This document shows positions 20,580 to 39,400 of a stretch of DNA of 64,000 nucleotides, piece by piece. The stretch is taken from positions 65,929 to 129,928 of the forward strand of contig NZ_RYFF01000005.1 in NCBI RefSeq assembly GCF_004138165.1. The letters are read 5' to 3'. Source of the DNA: Candidatus Chloroploca sp. Khr17. Its GTDB lineage: Bacteria; Chloroflexota; Chloroflexia; Chloroflexales; Chloroflexaceae. A model generated the notes under the pieces. It was given only the letters and a program-made list of their open reading frames with translations. It made no database searches and was not told the origin of the DNA. Position numbers and translations under genes: made by a program. Position 1 is the stretch's first letter, and each line of letters opens with the position of its first letter.

Positions 20580-20590
20580 GGAAAGCTTGT

Positions 20591-21820: not shown

Positions 21821-21842
21821 CCGTTCAGGAGGAACGAACACT

Positions 21843-22949
21843 GTGTATACCATCGGGTTTGTCATCGAACAAGTACTGGGCCATATTACCCATACACAGA
21901 ATTTGCGGGCCAATGTGGGTGACGATGCTGACGTGCGCACCGAGTGGGTTCTCGTACCGTATGAGGTTGCGGGCCTGGCTCGTCATCTGCCTGTGTATGC
22001 AACGAACTGGACGATCCGTGCTGGTCTGGGGGCTCGACGTGGGCTTGCGCACATGGTTCGTGAGGTGCGCCCTGATGTGCTCTTCTTTCATACCCAGGTT
22101 CCAGCAATGCTGGCGGTGGATTGGCTGCGCCGCTTTCCCAGCATCATCTCGCTTGATGCAACGCCCTTGCAGTATGATCGGCTCGGTGAGTTCTATGCCC
22201 ATCAGAAGGGTTCGTTGACGAGCGAACTCTTGAAGTGGCGTCTGAGTCGGGTCTGTTTTGAACTGGCGCGCCATCTTGTTGTCTGGAGCAACTGGGCCAA
22301 GCAGGGCTTGATCGATGAGTATGTTGTCCCTGCCGAGAAAATTACGGTTATTCCTCCAGGGGTCAATGTGCGCGAATGGGTCCGCCCTACCCCGCTTACG
22401 CCTGATGGTCATCAGTTGAAAATCCTGTTTGTGGGTGGCAACCTCGAACGGAAGGGCGGCCTCTTGTTACTTGAGGCGTTCCGTTCGTTGCGCCACCTCG
22501 GGATCGAGTTGCACCTCGTCACTCGTGATCCCGTTGCGCCCGAACCGGGTGTTTTTGTCTACCATGATATGCAACCCAACAGTGATCGCCTCAAGGCGTT
22601 GTACCATTGCTGCGATATCTTTGCCTTGCCAACCTATGGCGATTGCTTGCCTATGGTGCTTTCCGAAGCGGGTGCGGCTGGCATGGCCACGGTTTCGACC
22701 CGCGTGGGGGCTATTCCTGAGGTGGTACGCCATGCTGAGACGGGTTTGTTGGTTGAGCCTGGCGATGGGGCCGGGTTGACGCTGGCTCTACAACAGTTGG
22801 TGCTCAATCCCGCGTTGCGGCTGAGGCTGGCTCATGCCGCCGTCGCGCATATTCGGCAGGCCTATGATCTGCAGGTGAATTCCCGCCTTCTCTTTGAGCT
22901 GTTGAAGCATGAAGCGGCTGCGGCCCGTGGGCAAGTGAGGGTGGCATGA
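21843..22949 (+). CDS. Glycosyltransferase family 4
   Basis: 368 residues. GT-B features are SIISLDATPLQYDRLGEFY in the acceptor half, VIPPGVNVREW as inter-domain hinge, ILFVGGNLERKGGLLLLEAF as start of the donor domain, and YGDCLPMVLSEAGAAGMATVSTRVGAIPEVV as the nucleotide-sugar site. It starts with GTG 21843, supported by AGGAGG 10 bases upstream. It overlaps the next glycosyltransferase by four bases (ATGA), so the two are translationally coupled. Confidence 0.9.
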   Translation: MYTIGFVIEQVLGHITHTQNLRANVGDDADVRTEWVLVPYEVAGLARHLPVYATNWTIRAGLGARRGLAHMVREVRPDVLFFHTQVPAMLAVDWLRRFPSIISLDATPLQYDRLGEFYAHQKGSLTSELLKWRLSRVCFELARHLVVWSNWAKQGLIDEYVVPAEKITVIPPGVNVREWVRPTPLTPDGHQLKILFVGGNLERKGGLLLLEAFRSLRHLGIELHLVTRDPVAPEPGVFVYHDMQPNSDRLKALYHCCDIFALPTYGDCLPMVLSEAGAAGMATVSTRVGAIPEVVRHAETGLLVEPGDGAGLTLALQQLVLNPALRLRLAHAAVAHIRQAYDLQVNSRLLFELLKHEAAAARGQVRVA

Positions 22950-24046
22950 CCAATCAAGTTCTCTTGACCGTCGCTGGAACTATTCCTGCTGATCTTGTTG
23001 ATCAGATTGAACGCGGCCAGCGTCCGCGTGCTGACTATCTTGAATTGGCGCGTCATTGCGGCGCTGATCTGATCGATTATGCCCGTGCGCACCACGAGAC
23101 GGGCCTGTTTGGGCGCCTTCTTGCCAGGCTTGGTGGTGCTGATCTGACCCTTGCCTGGGCCTGTTTTCGGCACCGCCACCGCTATCAGGCGATCATTACT
23201 GATGGCGAACAGGTCGGCCTCCCTCTGGCGACGCTGTTCAAGTTCTTGGCTTTGGGTAAACGACCGAAACACTTGATGATAACACATATTATTTCGGTGC
23301 CAAAGAAAATGTTTTTTCTTGATGTGTTACGTGTGCAAGATCACATTGATCGGTTTCTTGTCTATGCGACCCGTCAAAAACACTTTATTGAACAACGCTG
23401 GAAGCTTGCGCCCGAACGGGTCTTGTTCACGCCATTTATGGTGGATAGCCGTTTTTTTGCGCTGGAACATGTGGAGCCGGCGCATTTGGCGCGCCCGCAG
23501 ATCTGTGCCGTGGGTCTCGAACGCCGTGATTACCCGACGTTGTTGCAGGCGGTTGATGGGTTGCCGGTTGATGTAGTGATTGCTGCGGCGAGCCCCTGGT
23601 CAAAGCGGCAGGATAGCACCGCTGGCCAGCGCATCCCCGCCAATGTGACGGTGCGTCGGTTTACCCAGTACGAGTTGCGCCAACTTTATGCTGATAGCGC
23701 GTTTCTTGTGATGCCCCTTGAACCGGTTGAATTCCAGGCCGGGATCACGGCTATCCTTGAGGCGATGGCGATGGAGCGTGCCGTGATCTGTTCGCGTGTG
23801 GCTGGTCAGACCGATGTGATCCGTGACCAGGAACATGGCCTTTATGTTGCTCCTGGTGATCCGGTTGCGCTACGCCGTGCGATTGAAATGTTGCTTGCGA
23901 ACCCTGATCAAGCTGCTACAATGGGACGTAACGGGCGCCTGCTGGTGATGCAAGCGATGAATCTGGATCAGTATGCCGAGCGATTGAATGGCTTTGTGCA
24001 GGCGACGCTTGCTCGTGTAGCCCGTACGCCTTCTTCTTCTGCGTAG
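22946..24046 (+). CDS. Glycosyltransferase (GT4-like, GT-B fold)
   Basis: 366 residues. The C-terminal donor half is recognisable: ICAVGLERRDYPTLLQAV, RFTQYELRQLYADSAFLVMPL, then an E-rich donor site (EFQAGITAILEAMAMERAVICSRVAGQTDVI). The N-terminal half is less typical and lacks the usual Gly-rich loop, so the acceptor differs from its neighbours. It overlaps the previous gene by four bases and is followed by 70 bases before the first oxidoreductase. Confidence 0.85.
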   Translation: MTNQVLLTVAGTIPADLVDQIERGQRPRADYLELARHCGADLIDYARAHHETGLFGRLLARLGGADLTLAWACFRHRHRYQAIITDGEQVGLPLATLFKFLALGKRPKHLMITHIISVPKKMFFLDVLRVQDHIDRFLVYATRQKHFIEQRWKLAPERVLFTPFMVDSRFFALEHVEPAHLARPQICAVGLERRDYPTLLQAVDGLPVDVVIAAASPWSKRQDSTAGQRIPANVTVRRFTQYELRQLYADSAFLVMPLEPVEFQAGITAILEAMAMERAVICSRVAGQTDVIRDQEHGLYVAPGDPVALRRAIEMLLANPDQAATMGRNGRLLVMQAMNLDQYAERLNGFVQATLARVARTPSSSA

Positions 24047-24116
24047 AACGCTCTTTCTGCTTTCAAGCCTGCCAGGAACACCCCGGGCAGCACCTGCTCG
24101 ATAGGAGAGTTACCCA

Positions 24117-25229
24117 ATGAAGATTGCCCTGGTTGGTTGCGGTTTTGTCGCTGACTATTACCTCAAGACCTTGCCAGAACATCCTGAACTCACGTTGCTC
24201 GGGGTCTATGACCGTAATCAGGCGCGTGCCAGGACGTTTTCGGCGTACCATAAGGTGCCTACCTACGCTTCGTTGCCGGCGCTGCTGGCTGATCGTCAGG
24301 TTGACATGGTGTTGAACCTGACGAATCCGCGTAGTCACTATGAGGTGTCGCGGGCGTGCCTTGAGGCAGGCAAGCATGTCTACTCGGAGAAGCCGTTGGC
24401 GATGACCTTGTCTGAGGCGCGTGAACTGGTCGAGATGGCTGAGCACCGTGGGTTGCTCATTATTTCGGCACCGTGTAGCTTGCTGGGCGAGACTGCCCAG
24501 ACGGTCTGGAAAGCCATTCGTAAGCAGGTCATCGGTGCAGTGCGCCTGGTCTATGCAGAAATGGATGAGGGCATGGTCTTTAAGATGCCCTACAAAAAGT
24601 GGATCAGCGCTTCTGGGGCACCCTGGCCGTATAAAGATGAGTTTGAGATTGGTACTACCCTTGAACACGCGGGCTATGTGGCGACCTGGTTGCCGGCTTT
24701 TTTTGGTCCCGTGCAGTCAATTGCGGGTTTTTCAGCGTGCCTGGTTCCCGATAAGGGTACGCCGCTGGATGTCCTTGCCCCCGATTATGTGTCAGCTTCA
24801 CTGCATTTTGCGTCAGGTGTGGTGGCTCGTTTGACCTGTAGTTTGCTTGCGCCCCACGATCACTCGCTACGGATTATTGGTGATAAAGGGGTTGTGTATA
24901 CCGACGATACGTGGTACTACACGTCGCCGGTCTATGTGCGTCGCTGGTTCAATCTGCGGCGCCGTCATCTCGCATGGCCGCGCCGCACCTATCCGCTGGT
25001 TGGCAAAGGCACGCGCTATAAGTATCGCGGTACCCAGCAGATGGATTTTGCGCGTGGCCCCGCTGAACTGGCCGCAGCGGTGCGTGAGGGTCGCCCTGCA
25101 CGCCTCTCGCCGCGCTATTCGTTGCATGTCAATGAACTTGTTCTGGCGGTACAAAATGAATTGCAGGGTGGTGCGACGTACAAGATGACAACGACGTTCG
25201 ATCCGCTTGAACCGATGTCCTGGGTGTAG
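24117..25229 (+). CDS. Gfo/Idh/MocA family NAD(P)-dependent sugar oxidoreductase
   Basis: 370 residues. The Rossmann start KIALVGCGFVADYYLKTL and the conserved EKP-lysine motif (YSEKPLAMTLSEARELV near residue 91) define the family. The C-terminal alpha/beta substrate domain is less typical, lacking the usual GG..D.G.H and carrying GTTLEHAGYVATWLPAFFG instead. Members oxidise or epimerise sugar nucleotides; here it probably makes an unusual sugar for the neighbouring transferases. AGGAGAG precedes ATG 24117. Confidence 0.88.
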   Translation: MKIALVGCGFVADYYLKTLPEHPELTLLGVYDRNQARARTFSAYHKVPTYASLPALLADRQVDMVLNLTNPRSHYEVSRACLEAGKHVYSEKPLAMTLSEARELVEMAEHRGLLIISAPCSLLGETAQTVWKAIRKQVIGAVRLVYAEMDEGMVFKMPYKKWISASGAPWPYKDEFEIGTTLEHAGYVATWLPAFFGPVQSIAGFSACLVPDKGTPLDVLAPDYVSASLHFASGVVARLTCSLLAPHDHSLRIIGDKGVVYTDDTWYYTSPVYVRRWFNLRRRHLAWPRRTYPLVGKGTRYKYRGTQQMDFARGPAELAAAVREGRPARLSPRYSLHVNELVLAVQNELQGGATYKMTTTFDPLEPMSWV

Positions 25230-25280
25230 GGTGTAGGGCAAGGGGTGAGTTCTGCCGTCGTTGTAGTTGGGAGTGCGTTT

Positions 25281-26378
25281 ATGTCGAAGCAGATTCGCTG
25301 GGGAATTCTGGGTGCAGGCCGCATTGCACGTGGTTTTGCGCAAGGATTACGGATATTGCCCGAGGCCAAGCTGGTGGGCATCGCGTCGCGTACGTCTGAG
25401 ACGGTACGCCAATTTACCCGGATGCATCCGGTCGAGCGGGTTTATGCTTCATATGAAGAGATGGTGCGTGATCCGTCGCTTGATGTGATCTATGTTGCGA
25501 CACCGCACAACCGCCATGTCCACGATGTGACGCTTTGTCTTGAGCATGGCAAAGCGGTGTTGTGTGAAAAACCGTTTACCGTCAATGCCCGTCAGACGCG
25601 TCAGGTGATTGAACTCGCCCGTGCCCGGCGGCTCTTTTGTATGGAAGCGATGTGGATGCGGTTCATTCCGCTGATCCGCCGGGTGGCTGAGCTTGCTGCC
25701 AGCGATCAACTTGGCGATCTGCGGATGTTTATGGCTGATTTCGGGGTAGCCAATGCGTATCAGCCCCAGACCCGTCTCTACAATCCGGCCCTGGCGGGCG
25801 GTGCGTTGCTCGACCGCGGTGTCTATCCAATCTCGCTGGCCCATATGCTCTTTGGCAAACCCGAAGAGGTGGTAGGGTTGGCCGGGATGACGCGGGAGGG
25901 GGTTGATGAGCATTCAGCGCTGGTGCTGCGTTTTCCCAAGGGGCGGCTTGCGGTACTTGCTTCGTCACTGAGTAGCTTTGGCTCGAATGGTGCCATTCTG
26001 TCGGGAACCCACGGTAAAATTCAGATCCATGCGCCTTTCTTTTGCCCTCAGCGGATGACGATCGAGCGCTATCAGCCGACTCTTGATCCGGTTGGCGGTG
26101 ATCTCACGCTCAAACATCGTCTCGTGGAGGCAATCAAACAGAATCCGGTGCTCAACCGGGTCTACCCTGTGATGCGTTCGCTGGTACGCCCACGTCCACG
26201 CGATGTAACCATGCGCATCAAGGGCAATGGCTATAACTACGAGGCCGCTGAAGTCATGCGTTGCCTCCGCCTCGGCCTGACCGAGAGTCCGTTGATGCCC
26301 CTTGACGAGACCTTGCAGATTATGGAGACAATGGATACGGTCAGGGCCGCCTGGGGTCTCAAGTATCCTGGCGAGTAA
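25281..26378 (+). CDS. Gfo/Idh/MocA family NAD(P)-dependent oxidoreductase
   Basis: 365 residues. Starts IRWGILGAGRIARGFAQGL (Rossmann GxGxxA type), with the catalytic-lysine motif VLCEKPFTVNARQTRQVIE near residue 93 and GGALLDRGVYPISLAHMLFG in the C-terminal domain. This resembles the dihydrodiol/glucose-fructose dehydrogenase branch. ATG 25281 is chosen because it gives the conserved start and GGGAG lies seven bases upstream. It probably acts on a nucleotide sugar with the upstream paralogue. Confidence 0.9.
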   Translation: MSKQIRWGILGAGRIARGFAQGLRILPEAKLVGIASRTSETVRQFTRMHPVERVYASYEEMVRDPSLDVIYVATPHNRHVHDVTLCLEHGKAVLCEKPFTVNARQTRQVIELARARRLFCMEAMWMRFIPLIRRVAELAASDQLGDLRMFMADFGVANAYQPQTRLYNPALAGGALLDRGVYPISLAHMLFGKPEEVVGLAGMTREGVDEHSALVLRFPKGRLAVLASSLSSFGSNGAILSGTHGKIQIHAPFFCPQRMTIERYQPTLDPVGGDLTLKHRLVEAIKQNPVLNRVYPVMRSLVRPRPRDVTMRIKGNGYNYEAAEVMRCLRLGLTESPLMPLDETLQIMETMDTVRAAWGLKYPGE

Positions 26379-26488
26379 GCTAACCAACTTGGCGATTTAG
26401 CGCAGTTCAATGGGCGAAAGCCTCCCAAGCGGGGCGTTCTTCCCAGGGCTGAAGTTCCTGAATTTCCGTGCCTAAAGGCAAGCATCCT

Positions 26489-27475
26489 ATGAACCAATCT
26501 AGCCTGTCATCCTCGCCCTCCATCGATATTATCATCCCCACCCGCGGTCGTGGTGAGCTGATCACCACGACTATTGCCAGCATCCGCACCCTACGTGACG
26601 TATACTTTACGCTTTGGGTGATTGATCAAAGTGATGATGATCGCACTGAACAGTGTGTGCGTCGCCATGCGCTGGAAGATCCGCGGATCTGCTATCGGCG
26701 CACCCCCACTGTTGGTGCCAGCACGGCACGTAATCTTGGCGTGTCATTTGGGCAGGCTCCTTTCATTCTATTCACCGATGATGATTGTTACGTGCATCCC
26801 GACTGGGCTAGTTCGATGCTTGCCGAGTTGCGCAAACCGTCGATCTGGGCGGTCTTTGGGCGGGTGTTGCCTGCCACGCATGGTGCCGAGGATGCGACTG
26901 TGCTTCGCGGTGGTACGGTCGCCATCAAACCAGTTCAAGCGCCACAGGTGTATTCGGGCAATCGCCTTGATCTCAGCTTTGGCCATGGTGCGAGCATGGG
27001 CGTACAGCGTGACCGTATGGTGCAGTTGGGGGGCTTTGATGAGTTGCTCGGCGCGGGGGGCCCCTTGCATTCATGGGAAGACCGTGATGTTGGCTATCGG
27101 ATTCTTGCGGCAGGGGGGCACATTGCGTATACCCCTGCTGCCCTCATTTACCATCGCCAGTGGCGTGATTGGGACGCGATTCGGCGGGTCTTTCGTGGGT
27201 ATGCCATTGGGGCGGGGGCGTCGGCAAGCAAGTATGTGCGTTGTGGCGATCCCGTGGGGGTCGCGATCTTTACTGAGTGGATGTTCAGTCAAGGCCTGCG
27301 CCAGGCTGTCTCGGCGATCCTGAAATGGCGCAGTTGGCCCAAGCTCCAGGTTGCCCTTGAACAGTTTGTCTATCCTTGGTATGGGTTTGTCCAGGGGTTC
27401 CGCTATCCCGTTGATTGTACGCATTGCTTGTATCAGACGGGAACACAACCAGCAGAAGTGGTGCAAGCGCCCTAA
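26489..27475 (+). CDS. Glycosyltransferase family 2
   Basis: 328 residues, GT-A fold. IDIIIPTRGRGELITTTIASI at the N-terminus binds UDP/GDP; the metal-binding motif is FTDDDCYVHPDW near residue 96; the acceptor region GGFDELLGAGGPLHSWEDRDVGYRI near 180 carries the ED motif. A C-terminal segment of about 80 residues may lie on the membrane. ATG 26489 is preferred over GTG 26468 because AAAGG precedes it at suitable distance. Confidence 0.9.
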   Translation: MNQSSLSSSPSIDIIIPTRGRGELITTTIASIRTLRDVYFTLWVIDQSDDDRTEQCVRRHALEDPRICYRRTPTVGASTARNLGVSFGQAPFILFTDDDCYVHPDWASSMLAELRKPSIWAVFGRVLPATHGAEDATVLRGGTVAIKPVQAPQVYSGNRLDLSFGHGASMGVQRDRMVQLGGFDELLGAGGPLHSWEDRDVGYRILAAGGHIAYTPAALIYHRQWRDWDAIRRVFRGYAIGAGASASKYVRCGDPVGVAIFTEWMFSQGLRQAVSAILKWRSWPKLQVALEQFVYPWYGFVQGFRYPVDCTHCLYQTGTQPAEVVQAP

Positions 27476-27554
27476 CTCAGACCGCTCTCGGGTGCAGCGA
27501 CCTTCAGATGCAATCATGTATGGCGGCAGTGCAGTTGAAAATCGGAGCTAACGG

Positions 27555-28889
27555 GTGCTTCATGCCATCAAAGTCCTGGAACTTGAACTTACCCTCCCGC
27601 TCGTTGATCTGATCAATCTGGGGGCTTATCGCCGAGCGCACATCCTTGTTCGGTTGCAGGGCAGGCCGCTCGCCACCATCAGTCTGGAGGTGCAAGACGG
27701 TCGGATTCCTGCCACCGCACTGCGTGAGGCGCTGCTGCGCGAATGTGCCTGGATGCTTGTTGGTCAGCATCTGCAAGGCTTGTTGAACACTCCGCCTGCA
27801 CAGCCTTGGACGCTCGATGATCTTGCGGTAGCGCCCCTGCCTCCGGTGTATGATGGCCCCTGGCCTTCGGTGACGGTGGCCGTTTGTACGCGGGATCGGC
27901 CCGAGGCCGTGGTGCGCTGTGTGCAGGCGCTCCTTGCCCTTGATTACCCTGGGGCGCTGGAATTGATCGTCGTTGATAATGCTCCATCCGACGATCGTGT
28001 GCCGCGTGCGCTTGAATCATACGCGCCCCACGTGCGTTATGTGCGTGAGCCGCGCCCCGGCCTTGATTGGGCGCGCAATCGCGCTCTTCGTGAGGCCCGT
28101 GGCGATATTCTGGCGTATACCGATGATGATGTACTGGTTGATCCGCTCTGGGTCCGTAGTCTGGCGCAAGTCTTTGCCCAGCATCCGGCGGTGATGGCGG
28201 TAACTGGCCTGGTGGAGCCATATGAATTGGAGACCGAGGCGCAGTTGGCGTTTGAGCAGTACGGTGGCTTTGGGCAGGGGTATGAGCAGCGCTGGTACGC
28301 GATCAATCGGCCGGCCGATCAACCAGCGACGATCTATGCCGCAACCGGCAAGTTTGGCACTGGTGCGAATATGGCCTATCGCCGTGAGCTTTTTGCTTCG
28401 CTTGGAGGCTTTGATCCGGCACTTGATGTGGGAACCCTCGCGAATGGGGGCGGTGATCTTGAGATGTTCTTTCGCGTGATCAAGGCAGGCCATATTCTGG
28501 TCTATGAGCCGCGTGCGCTGGTCTGGCATTGTCATCGGCGCGAAGCGGCCCAGTTTCATCAGCAGATTGCCAATAATGGCGTCGGGTTCTATGCGTATCT
28601 GGTACGGCTTTTTCTGCACTATGCTGACGAACGCCGCCACCTGCTCCGTTTCGCGGTCTGGTGGTTTTGCTCGTGGTATCTCTATCGTTGGGGGCGCTCG
28701 TATGTGGCACCGGTCAATACGACCCGCGACCTGATCGTTGCTGAGATGCGTGGAGCTTTGCTTGGGCTTGGTCGCTATCAGCGTGCGGTTCGCGTGGCGC
28801 GCCAGATGGTTCGACCCGATGATCTGCCCGATAGGTGCGCTAACCCTTCGCGCCTTCGCGTCAGCTTCTTTGAAAAGGAGTGGCCTTAG
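27555..28889 (+). CDS. Glycosyltransferase family 2 with N-terminal extension
   Basis: 444 residues. Residues 1-95 form an extra N-terminal domain also found in other actinobacterial and chloroflexal GT2 proteins. The catalytic GT-A domain starts at VTVAVCTRDRPEAVVRCV; the DXD motif is YTDDDVLVDPLW near 190, and the acceptor loop is GGFDPALDVGTLANGGGDLEMFFR near 285. The start is GTG 27555 with GGAG seven bases upstream. The last 18 or so residues are encoded by part of a dispersed repeat (28833-28877) and do not look like native family sequence. Its stop is four bases from the convergent gene's stop. Confidence 0.88.
   Translation: MLHAIKVLELELTLPLVDLINLGAYRRAHILVRLQGRPLATISLEVQDGRIPATALREALLRECAWMLVGQHLQGLLNTPPAQPWTLDDLAVAPLPPVYDGPWPSVTVAVCTRDRPEAVVRCVQALLALDYPGALELIVVDNAPSDDRVPRALESYAPHVRYVREPRPGLDWARNRALREARGDILAYTDDDVLVDPLWVRSLAQVFAQHPAVMAVTGLVEPYELETEAQLAFEQYGGFGQGYEQRWYAINRPADQPATIYAATGKFGTGANMAYRRELFASLGGFDPALDVGTLANGGGDLEMFFRVIKAGHILVYEPRALVWHCHRREAAQFHQQIANNGVGFYAYLVRLFLHYADERRHLLRFAVWWFCSWYLYRWGRSYVAPVNTTRDLIVAEMRGALLGLGRYQRAVRVARQMVRPDDLPDRCANPSRLRVSFFEKEWP
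28833..28877. repeat. Repeat-element fragment forming the 3' end of the GT2 gene
   Basis: The reverse complement of this stretch (word order: CCTTTTCAAAGAAG, CTGACGCGAAGGCGCGAAGGGTTAGCGCACC) lines up with the left half of the element at 8895-8950, with a few changes and an 8-9 base shorter CGCGAAG run. The coding frame runs through it to the stop codon. Confidence 0.6.
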
Positions 28890-28893
28890 GTGG

Positions 28894-30441
28894 TCATGCT
28901 GATGTTGCCGTGGCAATATCCGGATAGAGGTTGAGGATCGTCTCAAGTTTGACGAGTTTCAAGGTACGGAGCACGTCACTCGAGCAGTTGGTAATGCGGA
29001 GTTCGCCCTCACGCCCGCGGGCGGCTCGGTCAACCTTAATCAGGGTTGACATACCAATGCTGGCGAGAAAGACGACCTCGCTCATATCAACAATCAATTT
29101 CGGATGGTGCTTGAGCTGTTCCATGCAGAGCTCGAGCATCGTTGAAGCTGTGGACGCATCAAAGAGGCGTGGGCTACGAATGATGTGCCATCCGCCCGTA
29201 CCGGGCTTGGCATCGCTCACTTCGTTCGTCTTCAAGCGACGGTCTTCGGCGGCAGCCGGGCTCGCCATGATCTCAAAGAAGTGGTGCAGATTCACCAGAG
29301 TCAGAATTTCGCGGATCGGCCGAGGCACTTCGACGAGCCAGACATCGCCGCCACCAGCGCGGGCCTGATTTGCTAGGGCGACGAGCGCACCCAGCGCACT
29401 GCTGTCGAGGAATTCGGCTTCGGCCAGACTAATAATAAGATAGGGGTTGCCTTGCAACAACTGGTTGGCCTGTTGCACAAAGGTTGCCTGATTACTCACA
29501 TCAAGCCGCCCACGAATACGCATGATTGGTGTCGTCTGCGTTGCGACCGCTGCGACTGGAACCGGTGTTGCCACCGAAGCTTCGTCGCCGTCTGCTGTCA
29601 CTAGGATCGGCTCGGCAGGTGGGGGAGGGGGAGGCGGAGTCTCGATGGTGGTGGTGACGGGAATCATGTTGATCCCACCGCCGGAACGCATGGCCCACCA
29701 CTGACGGGCAAAAAAATAGCCGAAGTAGCCAAAATCGTGCAGATACCGCTTGAGGAGGCGCTGTGGTTCTTGCGCCAGACGATAGATCCACTCGAGACCA
29801 GTGCGTTGCATCCAGGCGGGGGCGCGACGTGTGACCCCGACGATCATATCGAGGGTGCCCCCGATCCCGATGCAGATCGGCACTTGAAGGGTTGGCGCGT
29901 GCATTCGGATCCACTTTTCTTGTTTTGGATTGCCAAACGCAACGAGCAGAATATCGGGGCGGGCCGCTTTGATCGCATCCACGATGCCCTGATCCATCTC
30001 GAGCACCGAGGCGGGTGGCGGTGAAAGTACACCGGCGACCTTGAGGCCAGGGTTGCGTTGTTGCAAGATGTCAGCTGCACGGTCTGCAATGCCGGGCCCT
30101 GCCCCCAGAAAAAAGATCGAATAACCTTTGTGGGCGGCGCGATGGGCCAGGGTTGGTACCATATCGGCCCCTGTGACCCGGCCTGGCAGGGAACCACCTA
30201 GTAGGCGCGAGGCCCAGACAAGCGGCATGCCATCGGCGGTTGCCATATCGGCTTCTTGCAGAATACGGCGTAATTCAGGGTCGTGCAGTGAGTTGACCAC
30301 AAAATCAGCGTTGACCGTTGCTATCTGATGGGTTCTACCAGTGGTTCTTCCATGGGCAATGAATTTGTCACAGCGCTCCAGCGCTTCTTCCATGGTTAGA
30401 TTATCAATTGGGACGCCCAGAACGATGAGCAATTTGCGCAT
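28894..30441 (-). CDS. WecG/TagA/CpsF glycosyltransferase fused to two STAS domains
   Basis: 515 residues. Residues 1-250 are a GT26 enzyme: VLGVPIDNLTMEEAL, NADFVVNSLHDPELRRIL, ATADGMPLVWASRL with the catalytic Asp, GADMVPTL, and FGNPKQEKWIRMHA. This family transfers ManNAc-type sugars to undecaprenyl-linked acceptors at the inner membrane face. A Pro/Ala-rich linker spans about 265-303. Two STAS domains follow, at 305-395 (FLDSSALGAL, phosphorylatable Ser347/348) and 417-510 (FLASIGMSTL, Ser461). STAS domains are partners of anti-sigma kinases. The combination is unusual and suggests phosphorylation-controlled glycan synthesis. Confidence 0.88.
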   Translation of the reverse strand: MRKLLIVLGVPIDNLTMEEALERCDKFIAHGRTTGRTHQIATVNADFVVNSLHDPELRRILQEADMATADGMPLVWASRLLGGSLPGRVTGADMVPTLAHRAAHKGYSIFFLGAGPGIADRAADILQQRNPGLKVAGVLSPPPASVLEMDQGIVDAIKAARPDILLVAFGNPKQEKWIRMHAPTLQVPICIGIGGTLDMIVGVTRRAPAWMQRTGLEWIYRLAQEPQRLLKRYLHDFGYFGYFFARQWWAMRSGGGINMIPVTTTIETPPPPPPPAEPILVTADGDEASVATPVPVAAVATQTTPIMRIRGRLDVSNQATFVQQANQLLQGNPYLIISLAEAEFLDSSALGALVALANQARAGGGDVWLVEVPRPIREILTLVNLHHFFEIMASPAAAEDRRLKTNEVSDAKPGTGGWHIIRSPRLFDASTASTMLELCMEQLKHHPKLIVDMSEVVFLASIGMSTLIKVDRAARGREGELRITNCSSDVLRTLKLVKLETILNLYPDIATATSA

Positions 30442-30684: not shown

Positions 30685-30888
30685 CGTGATTTGGTGAAGG
30701 CTGACGACGGTTAGGTGTCGGGCGGAGGAAACCTGCCAGGTGTGCGCCGCCGCGATCCTGGGGGGAGCGGAAGTTTCACCCAAGGTCTGACGGGGATTGC
30801 CCGGCCCGCGCCGGGGCATGGGTTGGCACGCACCCATGCAGCGGTGGAGCGCACGGGAACGCCCGTAACCGCGCAGGTGGCACCGGCT

Positions 30889-30921
30889 AGACCTCACAGG
30901 TCTCGCAGACCTGTGAGGTCT
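30889..30921. repeat. AGACCTCACAGGTCT / AGACCTGTGAGGTCT hairpin
   Basis: Two 15-mers that are exact reverse complements, separated by three bases (CGC). Each arm is itself palindromic at its ends. The same pair occurs at 43799, 43896 and 56714 with 28-base spacers. Confidence 0.9.
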
Positions 30922-30951
30922 GGTCGAGCGGATTCATTTCTGGAAGACCAT

Positions 30952-31036: not shown

Positions 31037-31855
31037 TCAGGGAAGCGTGTGATCCCAGATCAACAGACCCGGACCATGACTCAGCACAACATGGGGCTGT
31101 GGTTCAGCTAAACTCAGCGTGCGCTGCTGCGGATCGGGGGGCAGCGCAATAATTTCGCCTTCGGAGCTGAAGATGACCCGGACGCACGTGAAGGCAAAGG
31201 TTAGTTCGGCCTGGCTTTGCAGGGTCAACTCGAGATCACTGTCACTATTTGCCCCGACACTGCCGCCAAGCTCGGTCATTGTTTCACGCAGGACGCTCAT
31301 ATCAACGTTGAGTCGTCGCCCGCGGGCCGAACTGAGTACGATGCTGATCTGACGACTAATCAGGATTGAGTCGATTAACAACAATTCATAGCCTGACTCG
31401 TTGAACAGAATCGAGGCGGCGGGGTTTTGCCGATCAATGCGGCGTTCGGTTAGCGCCCACCCGAGGGCGTTGGGATCAACGGCGCGCCGTCGTGCTTCTG
31501 GAAAGGCGAAAGTGAGGTGGGCCGCGCCTGCAAACCCCGCTTCAAGGTCGGCATACGGCAAGCCAAAACCCCGTAGAAAGCCGCGCAAGATGTGCAACCC
31601 CAGGTCGAGATTCACTTTGCGTGATCGCCGCCCCGAAATATCGGTGAGCAACGACTCTTCAATTGGTAACCCGAGTGGGCGCGCATCTTCGAGCATTGGC
31701 AACAAGGAACCACGAAAATACGTGCGTTTGTGGTGGTGGAGCAGTACCGTCAACGGAACCACGCGGGCATCGGGGATGCGCACGATATTCGCGTTGAAGA
31801 GATCATGCACCAGCCCGGTGAGCGGATCTTCACGACAGAGGGGGATAATGGTCAT
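31037..31855 (-). CDS. Bacterial gasdermin (pore-forming death effector)
   Basis: 272 residues. By recall it aligns along its length with characterised bacterial gasdermins, notably the Vitiosangium protein. Shared landmarks are an N-terminal cysteine (Cys7, palmitoylated in the family), then DP..L, a NIVRIPDARVVPL-like strand, GSL near residue 50, ISGRRS...LDLGLHILRGFLRGFG near 93-115, a LTFAFPEARR strand, and LTFAFTCVRVIF..EGEI near 215-232. The last 30-35 residues would be the autoinhibitory C-terminal peptide removed by a protease. In the family, cleavage frees a membrane-inserting domain that makes very large inner-membrane pores. AAGGAA six bases before ATG 31855 follows the ftsZ stop directly. 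Last gene of the operon, downstream of a CHAT protease and NACHT gene. Confidence 0.87.
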   Translation of the reverse strand: MTIIPLCREDPLTGLVHDLFNANIVRIPDARVVPLTVLLHHHKRTYFRGSLLPMLEDARPLGLPIEESLLTDISGRRSRKVNLDLGLHILRGFLRGFGLPYADLEAGFAGAAHLTFAFPEARRRAVDPNALGWALTERRIDRQNPAASILFNESGYELLLIDSILISRQISIVLSSARGRRLNVDMSVLRETMTELGGSVGANSDSDLELTLQSQAELTFAFTCVRVIFSSEGEIIALPPDPQQRTLSLAEPQPHVVLSHGPGLLIWDHTLP

Positions 31856-31864
31856 TACAGTTCC

Positions 31865-33028
31865 TTACGCCTGGCGAAAGCGCTTTAAGAAGGGTGGAAT
31901 GTCTAGGGCATCCTGTTCGCGTACGCTGACTGGCTCGGTGGGGGCCGCGCGTGGTTTGACCTGGTTGATGCGGGAGGGCATCGCATATGGTTGCGCCAAT
32001 GGCACGGGCTCTTGCAGGCTAAACCCGGTGGCGACGAGCGTGACTTTGACCGAGCCGTTGTTCATTGTGGGGTCGATGGTTGCCCCCAGGATGATGTTGG
32101 CGTCGGGATCAATGGTGCGTGCGACCATCTCGGCGACCCGTTCCACTTCGAAGAGCCCCAGGTCTTCGTCACCTGAGACATGCAAGAGGAGGCGGCTGGC
32201 CCCCTCAAGACGCCCTTCGAGCAAGGGGCAGGCCATGGCTCGGCGGGCCGCTTCGACGGCACGGTCGGCCCCCTGCGCCGAGCCGATGCCCAGTAAGGCC
32301 GGGCCGGCTTCACTCATGATCGTGCGTACGTCGGCGAAATCAACATTGATTAGGCCATGGTTGGTGACCAGGTCGGCAATGCCCTGAACGCCATGGCGCA
32401 GCACTGCATCAGCCATGCTGAACGATTCGCGCACCGTGGTGCTGCGTCCCGCTACTTGCAACAGGCGATCGTTGGGCACGACGATGACTGTGTCGGCAAC
32501 GGCGCGCAGTGCCTCAAGGCCCTCTTCGGCGGTGCGCGCTCGTCGCCGCCCTTCAAATGAGAAGGGACGGGTCACCAGTGCCACGGTGAGCGCCCCAAGT
32601 TCGCGGGCGACTTCCGCCACAATTGGGGCCGCCCCGGTGCCCGTGCCTCCGCCCATGCCAGCCGCAATAAAGACCATATCAGCCCCACGCAGCGCGGCGG
32701 TCAGGGCTTTGAGCGACTCTTCAGCCGCATGACGCCCAACCTCTGGGTTGCCGCCCGCCCCCAGCCCCCGGGTGAGGTTTTCCCCGAGGCAAATGAGACC
32801 GCCTGCTCGTCCGCCCGATAATGCCTGCCGATCCGTATTTGCCGCAAGTGTGTCAATTGCCGCCATCCGATGCTTGACCAGGCAGTTGATGACATTGCCA
32901 CCCGCCCCCCCTACTCCGATAACCCTGATCCGTAATTCGGGCGGACTTACCGTGAGGACGTCAGTGTCGGTTTGGAAGGGCGCCTGATCGTAGGTTGATG
33001 CTGGAAAGAAGATCAATCGCTCAGCCAT
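31865..33028 (-). CDS. ftsZ: FtsZ GTPase encoded inside the gasdermin operon
   Basis: 387 residues with all core FtsZ motifs: GVGGAGGNVIN near the start, NTDRQAL, RGLGAGGNPEVGRHAAEES, the tubulin signature GGGTGTGAAPIVAEVA, PNDRLL, NVDFADVRTIMSEAG, and a C-terminal peptide DIPPFLKRF like the FtsA/SepF-binding tail. The T7-loop residues are present, so it should bind and hydrolyse GTP and polymerise. I chose ATG 33028: AAGGAA lies eight bases upstream and the start overlaps the amidase stop by eight bases. Typical division neighbours (ftsA, mur genes) are absent. It may be a second FtsZ dedicated to this system or the cell's main copy; the sequence cannot tell. Confidence 0.92.
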   Translation of the reverse strand: MAERLIFFPASTYDQAPFQTDTDVLTVSPPELRIRVIGVGGAGGNVINCLVKHRMAAIDTLAANTDRQALSGGRAGGLICLGENLTRGLGAGGNPEVGRHAAEESLKALTAALRGADMVFIAAGMGGGTGTGAAPIVAEVARELGALTVALVTRPFSFEGRRRARTAEEGLEALRAVADTVIVVPNDRLLQVAGRSTTVRESFSMADAVLRHGVQGIADLVTNHGLINVDFADVRTIMSEAGPALLGIGSAQGADRAVEAARRAMACPLLEGRLEGASRLLLHVSGDEDLGLFEVERVAEMVARTIDPDANIILGATIDPTMNNGSVKVTLVATGFSLQEPVPLAQPYAMPSRINQVKPRAAPTEPVSVREQDALDIPPFLKRFRQA

Positions 33029-34952
33029 GGACGTATTCCTTTGCATAGCCTGCGTTGCGCAGGACACGAATCCGTTCGGAGGGGATCTGCAGGGTGGTTG
33101 AGAGGGAGCGTACTAGCCACGAAAGTGCACGACGTTGGATCGTGTCAGCGTCGGATGGTCCTCCTTCAACGGCAATGACGATTGAGCGCTCACCAAGCGC
33201 GGTATCGGGTGCAGCAGTCGCAACGCAGGCTTCGTCGCACAGGCGATAGATGGCTCCGGTTGCGTCAATGTAATAATGCCAGCGCCCTGCCGCTGCTTCA
33301 TGGTAGAGGTCGTTGCCAACCGGGCCTGTCGTTGCCGTGATCAAGATGGTGTCGGTTTGTGGGCGGGTGCGTTGCTGATGCTGGTGCAGCGAGGTGCCCA
33401 TATCAAAGATGATCGGTTGGGCCGCCGGACTGCCGAGCAGGGCTGTCGGTTCTTCTGGTTCGTGCTGGTTCCAGGTGAGGCCCAGGTGGACACGTTGACG
33501 GAGCCGGGTCAGCGGGTGATCTGGATGCCCGCCCAGGAGGATCCCGGTCAGGCCGCCGACCCGTGCCGCATTGTTGTTGAGGCCGATGACCTTTGTTTCG
33601 CTGGGCAGGGCTTTGTCGAGCGGCCAGTCGACCGAGGGCAACTGGCAGGCCAGGATATCAAGGGCAAAGGGCATCAGCAGATAGGCTTCGGTCTGCACCA
33701 TGACGACTTCGGGGCGCCCGAGGGGTGCACCGAGGCGTCGCCGTTCGGCCTGGCGGATCAAAAGGGCTTCGGCATCGTAGCGCCGCCCTGTCCGCGCACG
33801 GTAGAGGTCGTCGAGCAAGGTGCGGCGCAGGGTGCTGGTCGTGTCGGCATCGAGTCCGGCGAGGGTGCGATTCATTTCGCTCAGACGATAGACGGTCTGC
33901 CAGTCGTCAGCCGGTGAACAGAGGCTGTCGAGGCTGAAGTGCTGGCAGGTGAAGGCCTGGCGCCCGTTGATCGTCAGGCGGTGATTGGCCCCAATGGGAA
34001 CCCCCAACCGGGCTGGTTGTTTGAGATAGGCCTGGTGAAAGGCCCACGCGGGCTTGAAGCCATGTAACGGGTCGGCAGAGCGAAAGAGCAGGTCAAGCAA
34101 GGCATCGCGCAGCGGGCCTGCGGGGGTTTGTTGCAGCCGCTTGGTCTGCTGCTGCGCCGGTGGCTCATCATCTGGCCCGTTGGCCTCGGCATAGATCAGG
34201 TCACGCGCATAGGCCTCGATGAGCAGGGGGGCCTGACCTGGCAGACGTACGGCGCGATCACGGTCATCCTGGCCCGTGCCGCCGCTCTGTCCGGTTGGGC
34301 GGGTCGTAATGACGGCCACTGGCAGCCCGAGACTCTGGCGGCGTGCGGCAGCAAAGAGCGGCCAGTCGGCAGCGATGCCGGTACCTGCGGCACGGTAGGC
34401 GAGATCGAGCATCAGGTTGCGCACCTGATCCTGGGGGGACGCGCTGCCTGCCTCACTGTTGGTATACACGCGCGCCACAAAGGTTTGCCACGGGAACCCG
34501 GCAGGATCAGTTTTGCGCCCCGGACTGATATCGAGGTGCCGCACGAGTTGGGGACGGGGCACATTGTAGCGTTCGACCAACATCCGGGTGAGTGCGACGG
34601 TTGCCGCTACCTGGGCCTCGGGGTAGGGGTCGCGCCCGGTATTGAGATTCTCCAACTCGATGCCGACCGAGACGGTGTTGAGGTTGTCGCGCATCTGCCC
34701 ATCGATCATCCAGCGACTCACCCCGGCATGCCAAGCGATGTCTTCATCCTTCACCAACTGGCTGATCCGTCCGGCTTTATCAATGTAATAGTGACACGAG
34801 ATTGGTCGGCGTTCGTCACCACCTTTGCGGAGCCACCCGAGATCACCGGGTCCCCGGCCTGCTGTGGCGTGGATCACAATGGCTCGAATCCGCTCGGCGC
34901 TGCCACGTTGAAAATGTTGGCGGGTCATTCCGACCCACGTAATGTTGCCCAT
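33021..34952 (-). CDS. N-acetylmuramoyl-L-alanine amidase/PGRP protein with degenerate second amidase-like domain
   Basis: 643 residues. Residues about 20-165 are an Amidase_2/PGRP domain with zinc ligands in IVIHATAG and VRHLDISPGRKTDP, plus the substrate strand ISCHYYIDKAGRISQLV and IAWHAG. Such enzymes cut the MurNAc-L-Ala bond. The middle (about 165-540) is uncharacterised, mostly helical. Residues about 545-643 resemble the same fold again (ILITATTG, WHYYIDATGAIYRLCDE, RSIVIAVEG) but lack the zinc histidines, so this copy could only bind. There is no signal peptide: the enzyme should stay in the cytosol unless the membrane opens. 90 bases separate it from the CHAT gene upstream. Confidence 0.87.
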   Translation of the reverse strand: MGNITWVGMTRQHFQRGSAERIRAIVIHATAGRGPGDLGWLRKGGDERRPISCHYYIDKAGRISQLVKDEDIAWHAGVSRWMIDGQMRDNLNTVSVGIELENLNTGRDPYPEAQVAATVALTRMLVERYNVPRPQLVRHLDISPGRKTDPAGFPWQTFVARVYTNSEAGSASPQDQVRNLMLDLAYRAAGTGIAADWPLFAAARRQSLGLPVAVITTRPTGQSGGTGQDDRDRAVRLPGQAPLLIEAYARDLIYAEANGPDDEPPAQQQTKRLQQTPAGPLRDALLDLLFRSADPLHGFKPAWAFHQAYLKQPARLGVPIGANHRLTINGRQAFTCQHFSLDSLCSPADDWQTVYRLSEMNRTLAGLDADTTSTLRRTLLDDLYRARTGRRYDAEALLIRQAERRRLGAPLGRPEVVMVQTEAYLLMPFALDILACQLPSVDWPLDKALPSETKVIGLNNNAARVGGLTGILLGGHPDHPLTRLRQRVHLGLTWNQHEPEEPTALLGSPAAQPIIFDMGTSLHQHQQRTRPQTDTILITATTGPVGNDLYHEAAAGRWHYYIDATGAIYRLCDEACVATAAPDTALGERSIVIAVEGGPSDADTIQRRALSWLVRSLSTTLQIPSERIRVLRNAGYAKEYVHG

Positions 34953-35042
34953 CCCTGGTTCTCGCTTTATTTCATGACAACGGTTCGAGCCTGAAGCTAG
35001 TCGCTCAGTGCCTCTGCGTTAACCCAAACCGACCCAACGCTT

Positions 35043-36419
35043 CTACCCAACTACCCGCATTGTGACATCTTGAATCGAAGCCCCGCTATCAGCAATGACG
35101 CGCTGGTTGCTGCGGGGGCGCCCTTGAATGCTGAGTGAGCGAATGACCGCCCCCCGGCGTGCCAGGACACTCTGGCGCACATCATCGGGCTTGGCCGCCC
35201 CTGCCGACAAGGTGCGCGCCGGTTCGCGCAGGTAAAAGGGGCCACCGGTGCGATTCCGTAGGTAGAGTGCTGGGACGTACCACGATGCCCCGTCCGCTTC
35301 TTCGACAAAGAGAACCCGCCGCGCCTGGGCAACGCCCTCCTGGAGGCTCCTGCCGTCGGCAAGGGTGCGATAGATCGCCGCAGCCGCCCGGCTCGCTGCG
35401 GTTGAACGCACGGCTAGTTGCATGCCCAGCACTGCTGGTATGCCTGCCGCCACGAGCGCCTGGGCGACGCCGCCGAGCAGCGGATCACCTATCCCCCCAC
35501 CGACACTGGCCCCTTCGCAGGCATAGAGGGCGACCAACCCGACCTTGCCGAGCAGGGCGACAAAGGCTTCGGCAGGTACCCAGCTTGCGCCGTTGGCATC
35601 ATCAAGCAAGAGTTCGCCCAGGCCGCCGCGCAAACGCCCGTGCCCGTAAAAGTGCAGAATGTCAGGTGGCTCGCCTCCCAACGCCCGTACTAGTCCGGCG
35701 CGATCGGCTGGCTCTAATTCTTCGATGATCGCCTGCCCTTTTTCGACCAGTGGCGCGAGCGCTTCGTTGCGTGCAGCTCGCTCGACATAACGTAGCTCGG
35801 TGCTAATTCCAGCTTCAGGCGAGACGGCGAGGATGCGCAGCGGGCCGTGTCTACGGCGTAGCGGCGGCAAGGCCTGCGGAAGATCGAGGCGGCGCGTAAG
35901 ACTGCTCGCTTCGCCGCGCCCGAGCAGCAACGGGGCTGAGCCGTCATCCCAGAGCAATTCCCAAGGGAGCGCTGCAAGCCGTACGGCGTCGGGCGGAAAG
36001 CAGAGTTCGATCGCCAGCGGCACCCCCGTCGCTGTGGCGTGATTACGTGTACTCTCGAGCGCTTCGCGCCCAGCAGGATCGGCCGTCAAGGCGGTGTAGA
36101 GCCGCCGCCCGATCCGTCGCGGCGCATCCAGCGGCACCCGCTCGTTGCTTTCCCAGAGCCCCAGGGTCTCAAGGCGGGTTCGTTCTTCGGGGGTAAAGCT
36201 GAAGTGGCGTTCTTGCATCGCCGTACGCGCATAGGGATAGGTGGGATCTTGCAGCACATCAAGCGCACGCAAGATGAGCGCCAGTTCACTCGCTGGAATC
36301 GGGGGCACCATACGACTCTGGCGTACCCCAATGATGTCGGCTTCCCAGCGTACCGTCGCCCCGGCCCCACGGGGCAGCAAGATCAGTCGCAGGGCTACTG
36401 GTTCCAGTGCGTTGCTCAC
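35043..36419 (-). CDS. CHAT-domain (caspase-like) protease
   Basis: 458 residues. The CHAT domain spans about 140-400: LPWELLWDDG near 151, catalytic His260 in ILHFYGHGRL, catalytic Cys301 in GLVALYACEGA, then GGVAQALVAAGIPAVLGMQ. Residues 1-130 are a separate N-terminal domain. The C-terminal 40 residues contain short beta-hexad-like repeats (GAVIRSLSIQG, GASIQDVTMRV). CHAT proteases next to gasdermins are known to cut them. The start is GTG 36419, overlapping the NACHT stop by four bases, with GAGGTGA six bases upstream. Most likely the activating protease of the gasdermin. Confidence 0.9.
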   Translation of the reverse strand: MSNALEPVALRLILLPRGAGATVRWEADIIGVRQSRMVPPIPASELALILRALDVLQDPTYPYARTAMQERHFSFTPEERTRLETLGLWESNERVPLDAPRRIGRRLYTALTADPAGREALESTRNHATATGVPLAIELCFPPDAVRLAALPWELLWDDGSAPLLLGRGEASSLTRRLDLPQALPPLRRRHGPLRILAVSPEAGISTELRYVERAARNEALAPLVEKGQAIIEELEPADRAGLVRALGGEPPDILHFYGHGRLRGGLGELLLDDANGASWVPAEAFVALLGKVGLVALYACEGASVGGGIGDPLLGGVAQALVAAGIPAVLGMQLAVRSTAASRAAAAIYRTLADGRSLQEGVAQARRVLFVEEADGASWYVPALYLRNRTGGPFYLREPARTLSAGAAKPDDVRQSVLARRGAVIRSLSIQGRPRSNQRVIADSGASIQDVTMRVVG

Positions 36420-39400
36420 GACGTCACCTCTTCGGTTGTCCAGACCATACGGAAGCCCAGGAGGTTATAGCGCTGGGCGGGGTGAAACCAGTAATGCGTG
36501 CCGCAGCGCAGGGCGTCGCCGTCCCAGTTGAAGGCGCCCCCTTTGATCGCAGGCATTTGCTCGGGCGAGACATCGTGACAGGGCGTGCGTTCGTTGAGCC
36601 GCTCGGCCACGCTGGCGGTCCATTCCCAGATGTTGCCGGCCAGATCGAGGGTTCCACAGCAGGCTGCCCCGGTGGGAAAGACGCCGACTGGTGATGGGGC
36701 GCGCACGCCGGTATCGGTGTAATTGGCTCGTTCTGGGGTTACTGCTTCGTCGCCCCACGGAAACGTCCGCTGGTCGGTATGACGTGCCGCCCGTTCCCAT
36801 TCCAGGGCCGTTGGCAGGCGCAAGACCTCGCCAGGGTAGAGCCAGCCTGCCGTGCGCCCGAGCGCCGTGAGCCAGGCACAGTAGGCACTCGCTTCGTACC
36901 ACGAGACGCCAACGACGGGTTGGTTGGGGTTATTGTATTGCCCATTTGTCCAGAGGGCTGGCTGGGTAATCGGGACGATCACGTCGTCGGACGAAGGCAT
37001 GCGCCCGCCGTAGTCGAGAAAGGTGCGCCCCTCTGATGTCCACCAGCGCTCGTCACGGTAGCCGCCGGCTTCGATAAAACGCTGATACTCGCTGTTCGTC
37101 ACCGGATAGCGGGCCAGACGAAAGCTATAGCCTAGGTAGGTCTGGTGAAGCCCACTGCTGCGCCCGTGTTTGAGCCGTTCGTCGCCCGACCAGAAGTGCC
37201 CCGCAGCGACATCACACCAGTAATCGGCAATCCGGGCTTCGCTGCCACCGGTCGCCCGGCCATCGCTCAGGTTGAGCAGCCGTGGATCGCCGAGTTGACC
37301 CAGCACGAGCCCTCCGCTGATGCGGGTCGTGAGCGGAGTCGCCGGATCCATTGCTAGTTGCACCAGTGCGCCAGTCACGGCTTGCCAGGCTCGCCCGCCG
37401 GCACCATTCCGCCCGACATCAAGCAGACACTCACCCGCAAGAACGACGGGGTGGATGCCAGCGCGTTCGCCTGACGGCGCTTCGAGCAGGGCGAGCAAGA
37501 GGCGCCCGGCTTCACGCTGCGGCGCTGCGGCGACCGCGAGACGGATGACCTCGCGCCAGCGTGGATCATTGGCATAGTTTTGCAGCAAGAGGGCCGGATC
37601 TTCGATCGCAACCGACTCGAGCAACCCGCGTGCGGCCAGGTACTCCTGAAAGGTCAAGTGCAAAAAGGCGAACTTCCCGAAACCACGCTCTTGTAACAGC
37701 CCCGTATCGCGACGCATCAACTCGACAAAAGCCAGGGCCATCCGTCGGGCGCGGCGCCGTGGCATCCCATCCGTCTGTTCGAGCGTCTCGGCCAGACGTT
37801 TTTCGAGATCGACCTGTTCGATCAAGCCCTCGGCATGTTCGCTGTGCATCCAGAGCGCCAGCGGCCCCAACAGATTCACGACAAAGCGCTCGTCGAGCAA
37901 TTCATCGCCGAGATAGACCTCGACGGGGCGTCCGCTCAGTGAGCGAGCGCGGTTCCATGTTTCGGCCAGCGCGGCCACGCAGAGCCGGTAGAGTTCGACC
38001 CGTCGATCAGGCAGGCGCGCGCCCTGGTTGTGGATCAAAGCGAGAATCGTGAGCAGCAGCGGGTTCCGGGCGAGTTCGGTGACGTGGGGAACCGCAAAGA
38101 CCGCTTCGGTGAGCGACGCGCTGTAGGCCGCGACGCGCTGTTCGTGTTCAACCGCAGCCGACTCACGCACGAGATCATGCAAGAGTTCGTCGACCGGAGC
38201 AACTGCGGGCATGCTGCTCGCGGCATAGGCCTGGCTCCAGCGCTGAATAAAACTACGAATCTGGTCGTCACTGAGTGGTTGGATCGTCACCACCGCAAAG
38301 AGCGCTGGATCAAGCGGCGCATCATCGTAGCCCACAATCCGTGAGGTCGCGAGGAACCGGTTCCCCGGCGCGTCCCATTCGCGCACAAAGGCTTCAAGCA
38401 CCCGAATCGTCGCCTGCCGGTCGGTGCGCACCTCATCGAGGCCGTCGAGCAGCATCATCGCCCGCCCAGTTGTCAGGGCGCGCTGAAAGAGCGACCCATA
38501 ATCGGGCTGGGAGAGGCCGCGGTAATAATCGGCAAGGTATGCGAGCGGCGCGAGATCTTCTTTGCCGGGGCGACGGCGGGCCGCCGCAAAAGCAGCCACC
38601 GGAAAGAAGATTGGCAACCAGATCGGATCAAGCCCCAGGCGCTCGCGGGCATCGTTGCGGGTCAGGGCTAGCATCAGATAGCGCACCAGCGTACTCTTGC
38701 CACTGCCCGGATTGCCGAGCACAACCAAGAGCGGCTGTTCACAGACAAAGGTATGTAACGATACACCATTGCCCTGTGGCCCAAGTGCCTCAACCGGAAT
38801 ATAGATCTGTTCTAGATTGAGCCGACTGATAGTCTGGATCTGAAGTAGCCCACGAAAATCGAGTTGATTGAAATTCTCGTTGATAAAGGCCCGATAGCGC
38901 GCATAGAGCAGCGCAAGATCGGGGCTAGACGCTCCTGCCAGCGTATAGAGGTTGCCCCGGACAATCGTCTGCTGCACGTGGTGGATCGCAGCCCCATTGG
39001 TCGCCACAATGCCCTGGGCAAACTGTTCGGCAAGGGGGGCAACCGGCGTGACTCGCGCACTGCGAAGCAGATCAATCGCGGTGCGCTCGTCCGGGTTTGG
39101 CAGCAGTCGCCGCAGGCGGGCGTGATCGGCGAGGGCCTGGGGCACAAGTTGCCCGAGGAGACGGATCAGCGCGGGACCCGCTACGCGCCATGGTGGCAAC
39201 GTCACCTCGGCGTTTGCCAAACAGGGCCGTACCTCACGTCGGTACAACTCAACGAGCCGATTCAGATCAGGCTCACCAGCGAGCAACAGCTCTTCCACCG
39301 CAGCCGCCCGAAACCGGGCGGCCACGGGCGCTTCGTCGGTGAGCAGCGTCAGCAGCAACGCAACCGCCGGATCGGCCTCTTCCTGACCCAGGCGTTCGGT

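Follow-up and report, generated by a model that had tools for sequence, protein, structure and literature searches.

A predicted GT26 glycosyltransferase fused to two STAS domains as the likely target of a partner-switching operon in Chloroflexota

The most familiar role of partner switching is the release of sigma factors. The window that we analyzed, the whole 64-kb stretch (64,000 nucleotides) of DNA from Candidatus Chloroploca sp. Khr17, encodes on its minus strand a protein in which a glycosyltransferase domain is followed by two STAS domains, raising the question of whether an enzyme of glycan synthesis might itself be the target of such a switch. We examined the protein, its relatives and the genes that accompany them, and weighed the explanations that the fusion allows.

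Architecture of the fusion protein and its candidate phosphoserines

The open reading frame (28894..30441, minus strand, as are all features of the gene given below) begins with an ATG start codon and encodes 515 residues, and is supported by Pfam and NCBIfam profiles, by orthologues in 15 other genomes of our phylum sample and by dN/dS. The preliminary description of this DNA, which did not give the strand, had read the protein as a GT26 domain, a proline-rich linker and two STAS domains, an architecture that was borne out by the exact reading frame, both profile collections and a structure model. Pfam Glyco_tran_WecG (PF03808) matched residues 64-233 (E=4e-60, 202.8 bits, cut-off 27.4) and Pfam STAS (PF01740) matched with E=2e-28, split over two stretches. 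NCBIfam TIGR00696, the WecB/TagA/CpsF superfamily model, scored 143.8 bits against a cut-off of 69, and TIGR00377 (ant_ant_sig) scored 86.6 bits against 53.45, again over two stretches. The equivalog models for specific activities all stayed below their cut-offs (TarA 121.5/350, WecG 103.5/323 and EpsA 176.7/500 bits), as did the SpoIIAA equivalog of NCBIfam. The MlaB equivalog gave 26.8 bits, far under its cut-off of 90, so the criterion for an MlaB-type STAS domain was not met; neither was that for a stressosome protein (RsbR/RsbS), since the N-terminal domain is a GT26 enzyme and not a sensor. The criteria that were met are the GT26 profile with its catalytic residues, and the TIGR00377 profile with a SpoIIAA-like fold and a Ser at helix alpha-2. 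Judged from its sequence, the protein belongs to the GT26 enzymes, its donor being undetermined, and carries two anti-anti-sigma-type STAS domains.

We modeled the protein with AlphaFold2 from a 55-sequence alignment (mean pLDDT 89.4, pTM 0.86); an earlier model from 16 close sequences was weaker (pLDDT 68). The GT26 catalytic domain with its TagA-type C-terminal appendage occupies residues 1-255 (29677..30441), as indicated by PF03808, invariant residues and the TagA fold, and Foldseek matched it to TagA chains with TMt 0.92-0.93 (7mpk_B 0.93). T42, N44 and D70 aligned with Thr37, Asn39 and Asp65 of Thermoanaerobacter italicus TagA (7mpk), and R221 and R228 with the appendage residues Arg214 and Arg221; all five were invariant in 55/55 relatives. 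In TagA, Asp65 is the general base, roles have been assigned to the appendage Arg residues, and the enzyme becomes active only once the appendage folds on the membrane and so completes the active site (PMC6493773). By the alignment, D70 (30232..30234) is the equivalent of the general base. A helix at residues 226-253 (29683..29766) forms the aromatic-rich end of the appendage directly before the linker; its first part is homologous to the membrane-associating appendage of TagA, and we infer a membrane role for it. The disordered, Pro-rich linker (residues 256-300; 29542..29676) was the low-confidence part of an otherwise confident model, with pLDDT mostly <50, and varied in length among orthologues. 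STAS1 covers about residues 301-398 (29248..29541; PF01740 and HMM bounds) and STAS2 about residues 416-513 (28903..29196; second Pfam stretch and HMM bounds). The STAS part matched SpoIIAA/RsbV structures (1th8_B, TMt 0.79; 6m36_B, 0.83), and several of the matched chains stem from kinase complexes. From the conserved residues and the fold, we predict that the protein is very probably active as a GT26 enzyme; that it transfers a sugar to an acceptor linked to a polyprenyl carrier is inferred.

The preliminary description had also named candidate phospho-serines at 347/348 and 461. S347 (29401..29403), the first Ser of a D-S-S motif, aligned with Ser58 of SpoIIAA, which we take to be the phosphosite and the first Ser of the DSSG motif; S348 did not, and we dropped it. 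S461 (29059..29061), within A-S-I-G, aligned with Ser58 as well, with A in place of D before it. Each of the two residues opens helix alpha-2 in the model. Within the Chloroflexota-group loci the Ser was kept at the S347 position in 42/42 STAS1 domains and at the S461 position in 40/41 STAS2 domains, where the preceding D is replaced by A, S or T. The conservation did not extend to other phyla, where only 10/31 STAS1 domains have the Ser and most Acidobacteria and Armatimonadota fusions have lost it. The non-Ser versions there often carry P, A, G or T, and the frequency of these residues suggests that the fold of the fusion does not in itself demand a Ser here.

The fusion in other genomes and the operon that accompanies it

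We evaluated the possibility that the fusion arose from an assembly or frameshift error. It was present in 16 genomes of a 400-genome sample of the phylum (that of the window and 15 others), some of them single-contig, and the same architecture in the 15 others excludes such an artefact. The best named relatives were those of Candidatus Chloroploca asiatica (93% identity) and C. mongolica (89%), and 80 loci were located among 84,980 species genomes scanned, extending the architecture to further phyla. Pfam STAS was found in 54/55 members of the cross-phylum alignment. A STAS HMM detected two domains in nearly all complete Chloroflexota-group proteins, only one being found in L147, and one or two, a few with weak scores, at the Armatimonadota, Acidobacteriota and Desulfobacterota loci.

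We scanned the neighborhoods with HMMs built from the kinases, phosphatases and STAS proteins of the window's own genome. The scan included 44 Chloroflexota-group loci (L114-L157), 34 of which have enough downstream sequence to be informative. The recurrent order, on one strand throughout, was a gene for a phosphoglycosyl transferase (PGT; Bac_transf), GT26-STAS-STAS, a nucleotidyltransferase-LbH-Bac_transf fusion (the NTP gene), a solo STAS, a GAF-SpoIIE phosphatase, an HATPase_c_2 kinase and a response regulator, the last often present, with a GT2 gene often upstream. This arrangement spans Chloroflexia- and Anaerolineae-type loci. A same-strand RsbW-like kinase lay downstream in 31/34 informative loci (its assignment to the RsbW rather than the RsbT type does not rest on a tree), and 29 of those 31 also have the solo STAS and the SpoIIE-type phosphatase, so that all three occur in 29/34. 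The loci without a kinase were two from Chloroploca and L143, in which the glycosyltransferase operon is present and no kinase lies within 6 kb; two Viridilinea loci have the kinase without an adjacent phosphatase or solo STAS. One of the 31, L154, is a metagenome-assembled genome labelled Gracilibacteria, in which the gene is frameshifted and the operon resembles those of Chloroflexales. Residues E53/N57 of the kinase N-box, those of its G-box, the metal-site motifs of the phosphatase and D54-S55 of the solo STAS are conserved. With a cognate STAS protein, an HATPase_c_2 kinase and a PP2C-type phosphatase encoded together, the gene-content criterion for a partner-switching module was met, and no sigma-factor gene was found among the recurrent genes of the operon.

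We attempted to relate the module to the fusion by several comparisons. In a control of limited size, no genes of this kind lay within about 10 kb of the two GT26 genes of the window's genome that lack STAS. The NTP gene of the operon and the fusion were present or absent together in 22/23 family genomes (p=3e-5, shared ancestry uncorrected). STAS1 had its Ser in 32/32 kinase-linked loci, compared to 9/30 loci in other phyla whose flank has no kinase (p=8e-10), a comparison that is confounded by phylogeny. Outside Chloroflexota, the Armatimonadota locus L159 repeats the order PGT, GT26-STAS, NTP and STAS, keeps the Ser and has a CBS-CBS-HATPase_c_2 protein downstream. The fusion of the Acidobacteria locus L170 adjoins GT2 and Poly_export genes, and the Desulfoluna-type fusions of L176 and L186 adjoin DUF3485 genes; an HMM scan found no kinase in the fetched flank of these three example loci.

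We also considered a recent origin of the fused STAS domains by copying of the solo STAS. A 78-domain tree rejected this for STAS2, separating its Chloroflexota members (99/98) from the solo clade (98/93); the placement of STAS1 was unresolved, and the origin of the fusion is not settled.

Two other proteins met in the scan are recorded as separate observations. The CBS-CBS-HATPase_c_2 protein of L159 (9812-10786 of that locus) is a candidate RsbW-like kinase with nucleotide-sensing domains of its own. The NTP gene product (L103:7559-9262 and orthologues) unites a sugar nucleotidyltransferase, a left-handed beta-helix and a C-terminal bacterial sugar transferase, and is thus another unusual fusion in the operon, adjoining GT26-STAS in most Chloroflexota-group loci.

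The relocated gene of Chloroploca

The preliminary description had suggested looking in the genome for orphan kinases and phosphatases. Partners are indeed encoded there, but as a dedicated set and not as orphans, and neither a kinase nor a phosphatase was found in the 64-kb window. The operons of C. asiatica (L216) and C. mongolica (L217) are contiguous and lack only the GT26-STAS gene, with a gap of about 50 bp between the PGT and NTP genes. In the window's genome, contig C128 carries the PGT and NTP genes, running towards its end, and contig C5 starts with the genes for the solo STAS, phosphatase, kinase and response regulator; the C5 STAS groups with the operon STAS of Chloroflexales (100/95 in the 78-domain tree). 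Since the genus has kept the operon complete except for this gene, the most likely course suggested by these gene orders is that GT26-STAS was relocated to its place in the window in the ancestor of Chloroploca. The C23 kinase cluster of the window's genome was rejected as the cognate module (kinase identity 45-47% versus 50-53%; STAS not an orthologue of that in the operon). Within the genus, dN/dS was 0.11-0.15 for the gene, 0.09-0.12 for the glycosyltransferase part, 0.02-0.13 for the STAS part and highest, 0.26-0.46, for the linker. By this estimate, the relocated gene is under purifying selection in all domains.

Several features of these loci were observed in passing. Promoter and terminator scans around the gene gave nothing better than shuffled sequence. 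The 595-bp leader upstream of it contains a near-perfect inverted repeat (30884-30926; 20-nt arms, 3-nt loop), possibly a dispersed repeat linked to the relocation. On the minus strand at 31037-39574 are consecutive genes for a gasdermin (padloc bGSDM, E=2e-72), an FtsZ-family protein, an Amidase_2 protein, a CHAT protease and a NACHT-FGE protein, resembling a bacterial NLR-caspase-gasdermin death or defence cluster, which adjoins the relocated gene in all three Chloroploca genomes. On the plus strand at 18510-28889 lies a separate glycan cluster, convergent with GT26-STAS, in which several GT4 and GT2 glycosyltransferase genes accompany those for a HAD-domain protein and a GFO/IDH/MocA-type oxidoreductase. 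In C. mongolica, the end of the kinase gene and the start of the response-regulator gene are partly repeated between these two genes (L217:5496-6565), which is either a small tandem duplication or an assembly error.

Proposed switch, its alternatives and its relation to known systems

The gene neighborhoods support the earlier proposal that surface-glycan synthesis is controlled by partner switching; neither phosphorylation nor an effect on activity has been shown. On support that is comparative only, we consider it quite likely that the glycosyltransferase is the target of the operon's module. It is also likely, by inference from the genes and residues described above, that a dedicated partner-switching module has as its direct output an active GT26 enzyme, one adding a sugar to a polyprenyl-linked acceptor of an exopolysaccharide or surface glycan, with phosphorylation unproven and no biochemistry at hand. 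In the scheme that we propose, the kinase would bind and phosphorylate STAS1 (S347) and probably also STAS2 (S461) of the glycosyltransferase. By binding or by phosphorylation, the kinase would control whether the enzyme engages the membrane or docks to the PGTs, and so turn glycan initiation off; binding could block membrane engagement because the STAS domains directly follow the TagA-type appendage. The signal-responsive, GAF-bearing phosphatase would dephosphorylate the solo STAS, which would then compete for the kinase and release the glycosyltransferase. We lean towards the dephosphorylated, kinase-free enzyme as the active state, by analogy with SypA of Vibrio fischeri, which is active when unphosphorylated (PMC4517449). 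That the switch acts directly and post-translationally on a glycosyltransferase of polyprenyl-linked glycans, via STAS domains placed behind a membrane-gated active site and without a transcription factor, is a view that we only slightly favor.

The absence of the usual Asp before the Ser of STAS2 speaks against the scheme, as do the missing kinase of L143 and the two Viridilinea loci whose kinase has no phosphatase or solo STAS beside it; the kinase and phosphatase may act on the solo STAS alone, no biochemistry being available, and the Ser at the helix N-cap may be kept for structural reasons. STAS serves as a docking module in MlaB and in SLC26 proteins, and the fused domains could likewise be phospho-independent modules holding the glycosyltransferase by the PGTs, with the kinase, phosphatase and solo STAS regulating something else, such as transcription of glycan genes via a sigma factor. 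A fused STAS can evidently be retained without a switch, since most Acidobacteria and Armatimonadota fusions lack both the Ser and a nearby kinase, and the separation of the fused domains from the solo STAS fits docking too. We nevertheless regard docking alone as unlikely in view of the invariant STAS1 Ser wherever the kinase is adjacent, the lack of a recurrent sigma-factor gene, and STAS scores above the anti-anti-sigma cut-off and far below that of MlaB.

Even less support was found for the glycosyltransferase as a sensor, whose substrate- or membrane-bound state would expose the STAS domains, titrate the kinase and report the flux of glycan precursors to other targets of the module. Because competition for the kinase decides the outcome of partner switching, every STAS protein could serve as input as well as output, and gene content does not fix the direction; with a separate sensor already in the phosphatase GAF domain, a response regulator present and no other output encoded in the operon, we think this reading very doubtful. 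The reading that we consider most improbable is that the Chloroploca gene is a decaying remnant without function. It stands outside the operon in all three Chloroploca genomes, between the gasdermin cluster and glycosyltransferase genes, with no kinase in the window, but the low dN/dS of the whole gene and of its STAS part is at odds with decay, and the catalytic residues, both Ser and the rest of the operon have all been kept. The preferred reading remains that of an enzyme controlled by the module.

The components of this scheme have counterparts in known systems. TagA/TarA of T. italicus (5wb4, 5wfg, 7mpk, 7n41) shares the fold, the catalytic Thr/Asn/Asp and the appendage Arg residues but lacks the linker and STAS domains; the Chloroploca enzyme is under the TarA cut-off, and its donor and acceptor are untested. 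The Rsb and SpoIIA systems (RsbV-RsbW-RsbU; SpoIIAA-SpoIIAB-SpoIIE) consist of proteins from the same three families, whose catalytic and phosphosite residues are conserved, and differ in that their known output is a sigma factor, whereas in the Chloroflexota operon the STAS domains are carried by an enzyme. SypA/SypE of V. fischeri is, as here, a STAS phosphoserine switch in a polysaccharide locus, but SypA is a stand-alone STAS whose target is stated as unknown, SypE unites kinase and phosphatase domains, and no glycosyltransferase fusion is described (PMC4517449). In Nostoc punctiforme the separate phosphatase, STAS and kinase HmpU/HmpV/HmpW control polysaccharide and motility, with the STAS as output; the target of HmpV is undefined, and no GT26 fusion is described (PMC8256260, PMC6495340). 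All4160 of Anabaena PCC 7120 is cited as a glycosyltransferase with a STAS domain and, according to the title that PMC8256260 gives for Wang 2007, is required for heterocyst envelope polysaccharide; its STAS is single and N-terminal, compared to two C-terminal domains in the Chloroploca protein. Given this cited precedent, a glycosyltransferase with STAS is not wholly new, which qualifies the preliminary statement that the architecture was unknown from described systems. That statement held for GT26-STAS: the open-access literature searched yielded no description of it, nor of a GT-STAS fusion as part of a complete partner-switching operon; other papers are not excluded.

A STAS domain covalently joined to a glycosyltransferase that is encoded with a kinase, a phosphatase and a solo STAS across distant Chloroflexota provides a concrete candidate for an enzyme target of partner switching. 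If the direct post-translational switch holds true, the unknown target of SypA and HmpV may be a membrane glycosyltransferase, and GT26 enzymes, which are gated by membrane-induced folding, would gain a plausible regulatory handle. The question of whether the enzyme is the target of the switch thereby becomes directly testable with purified proteins.
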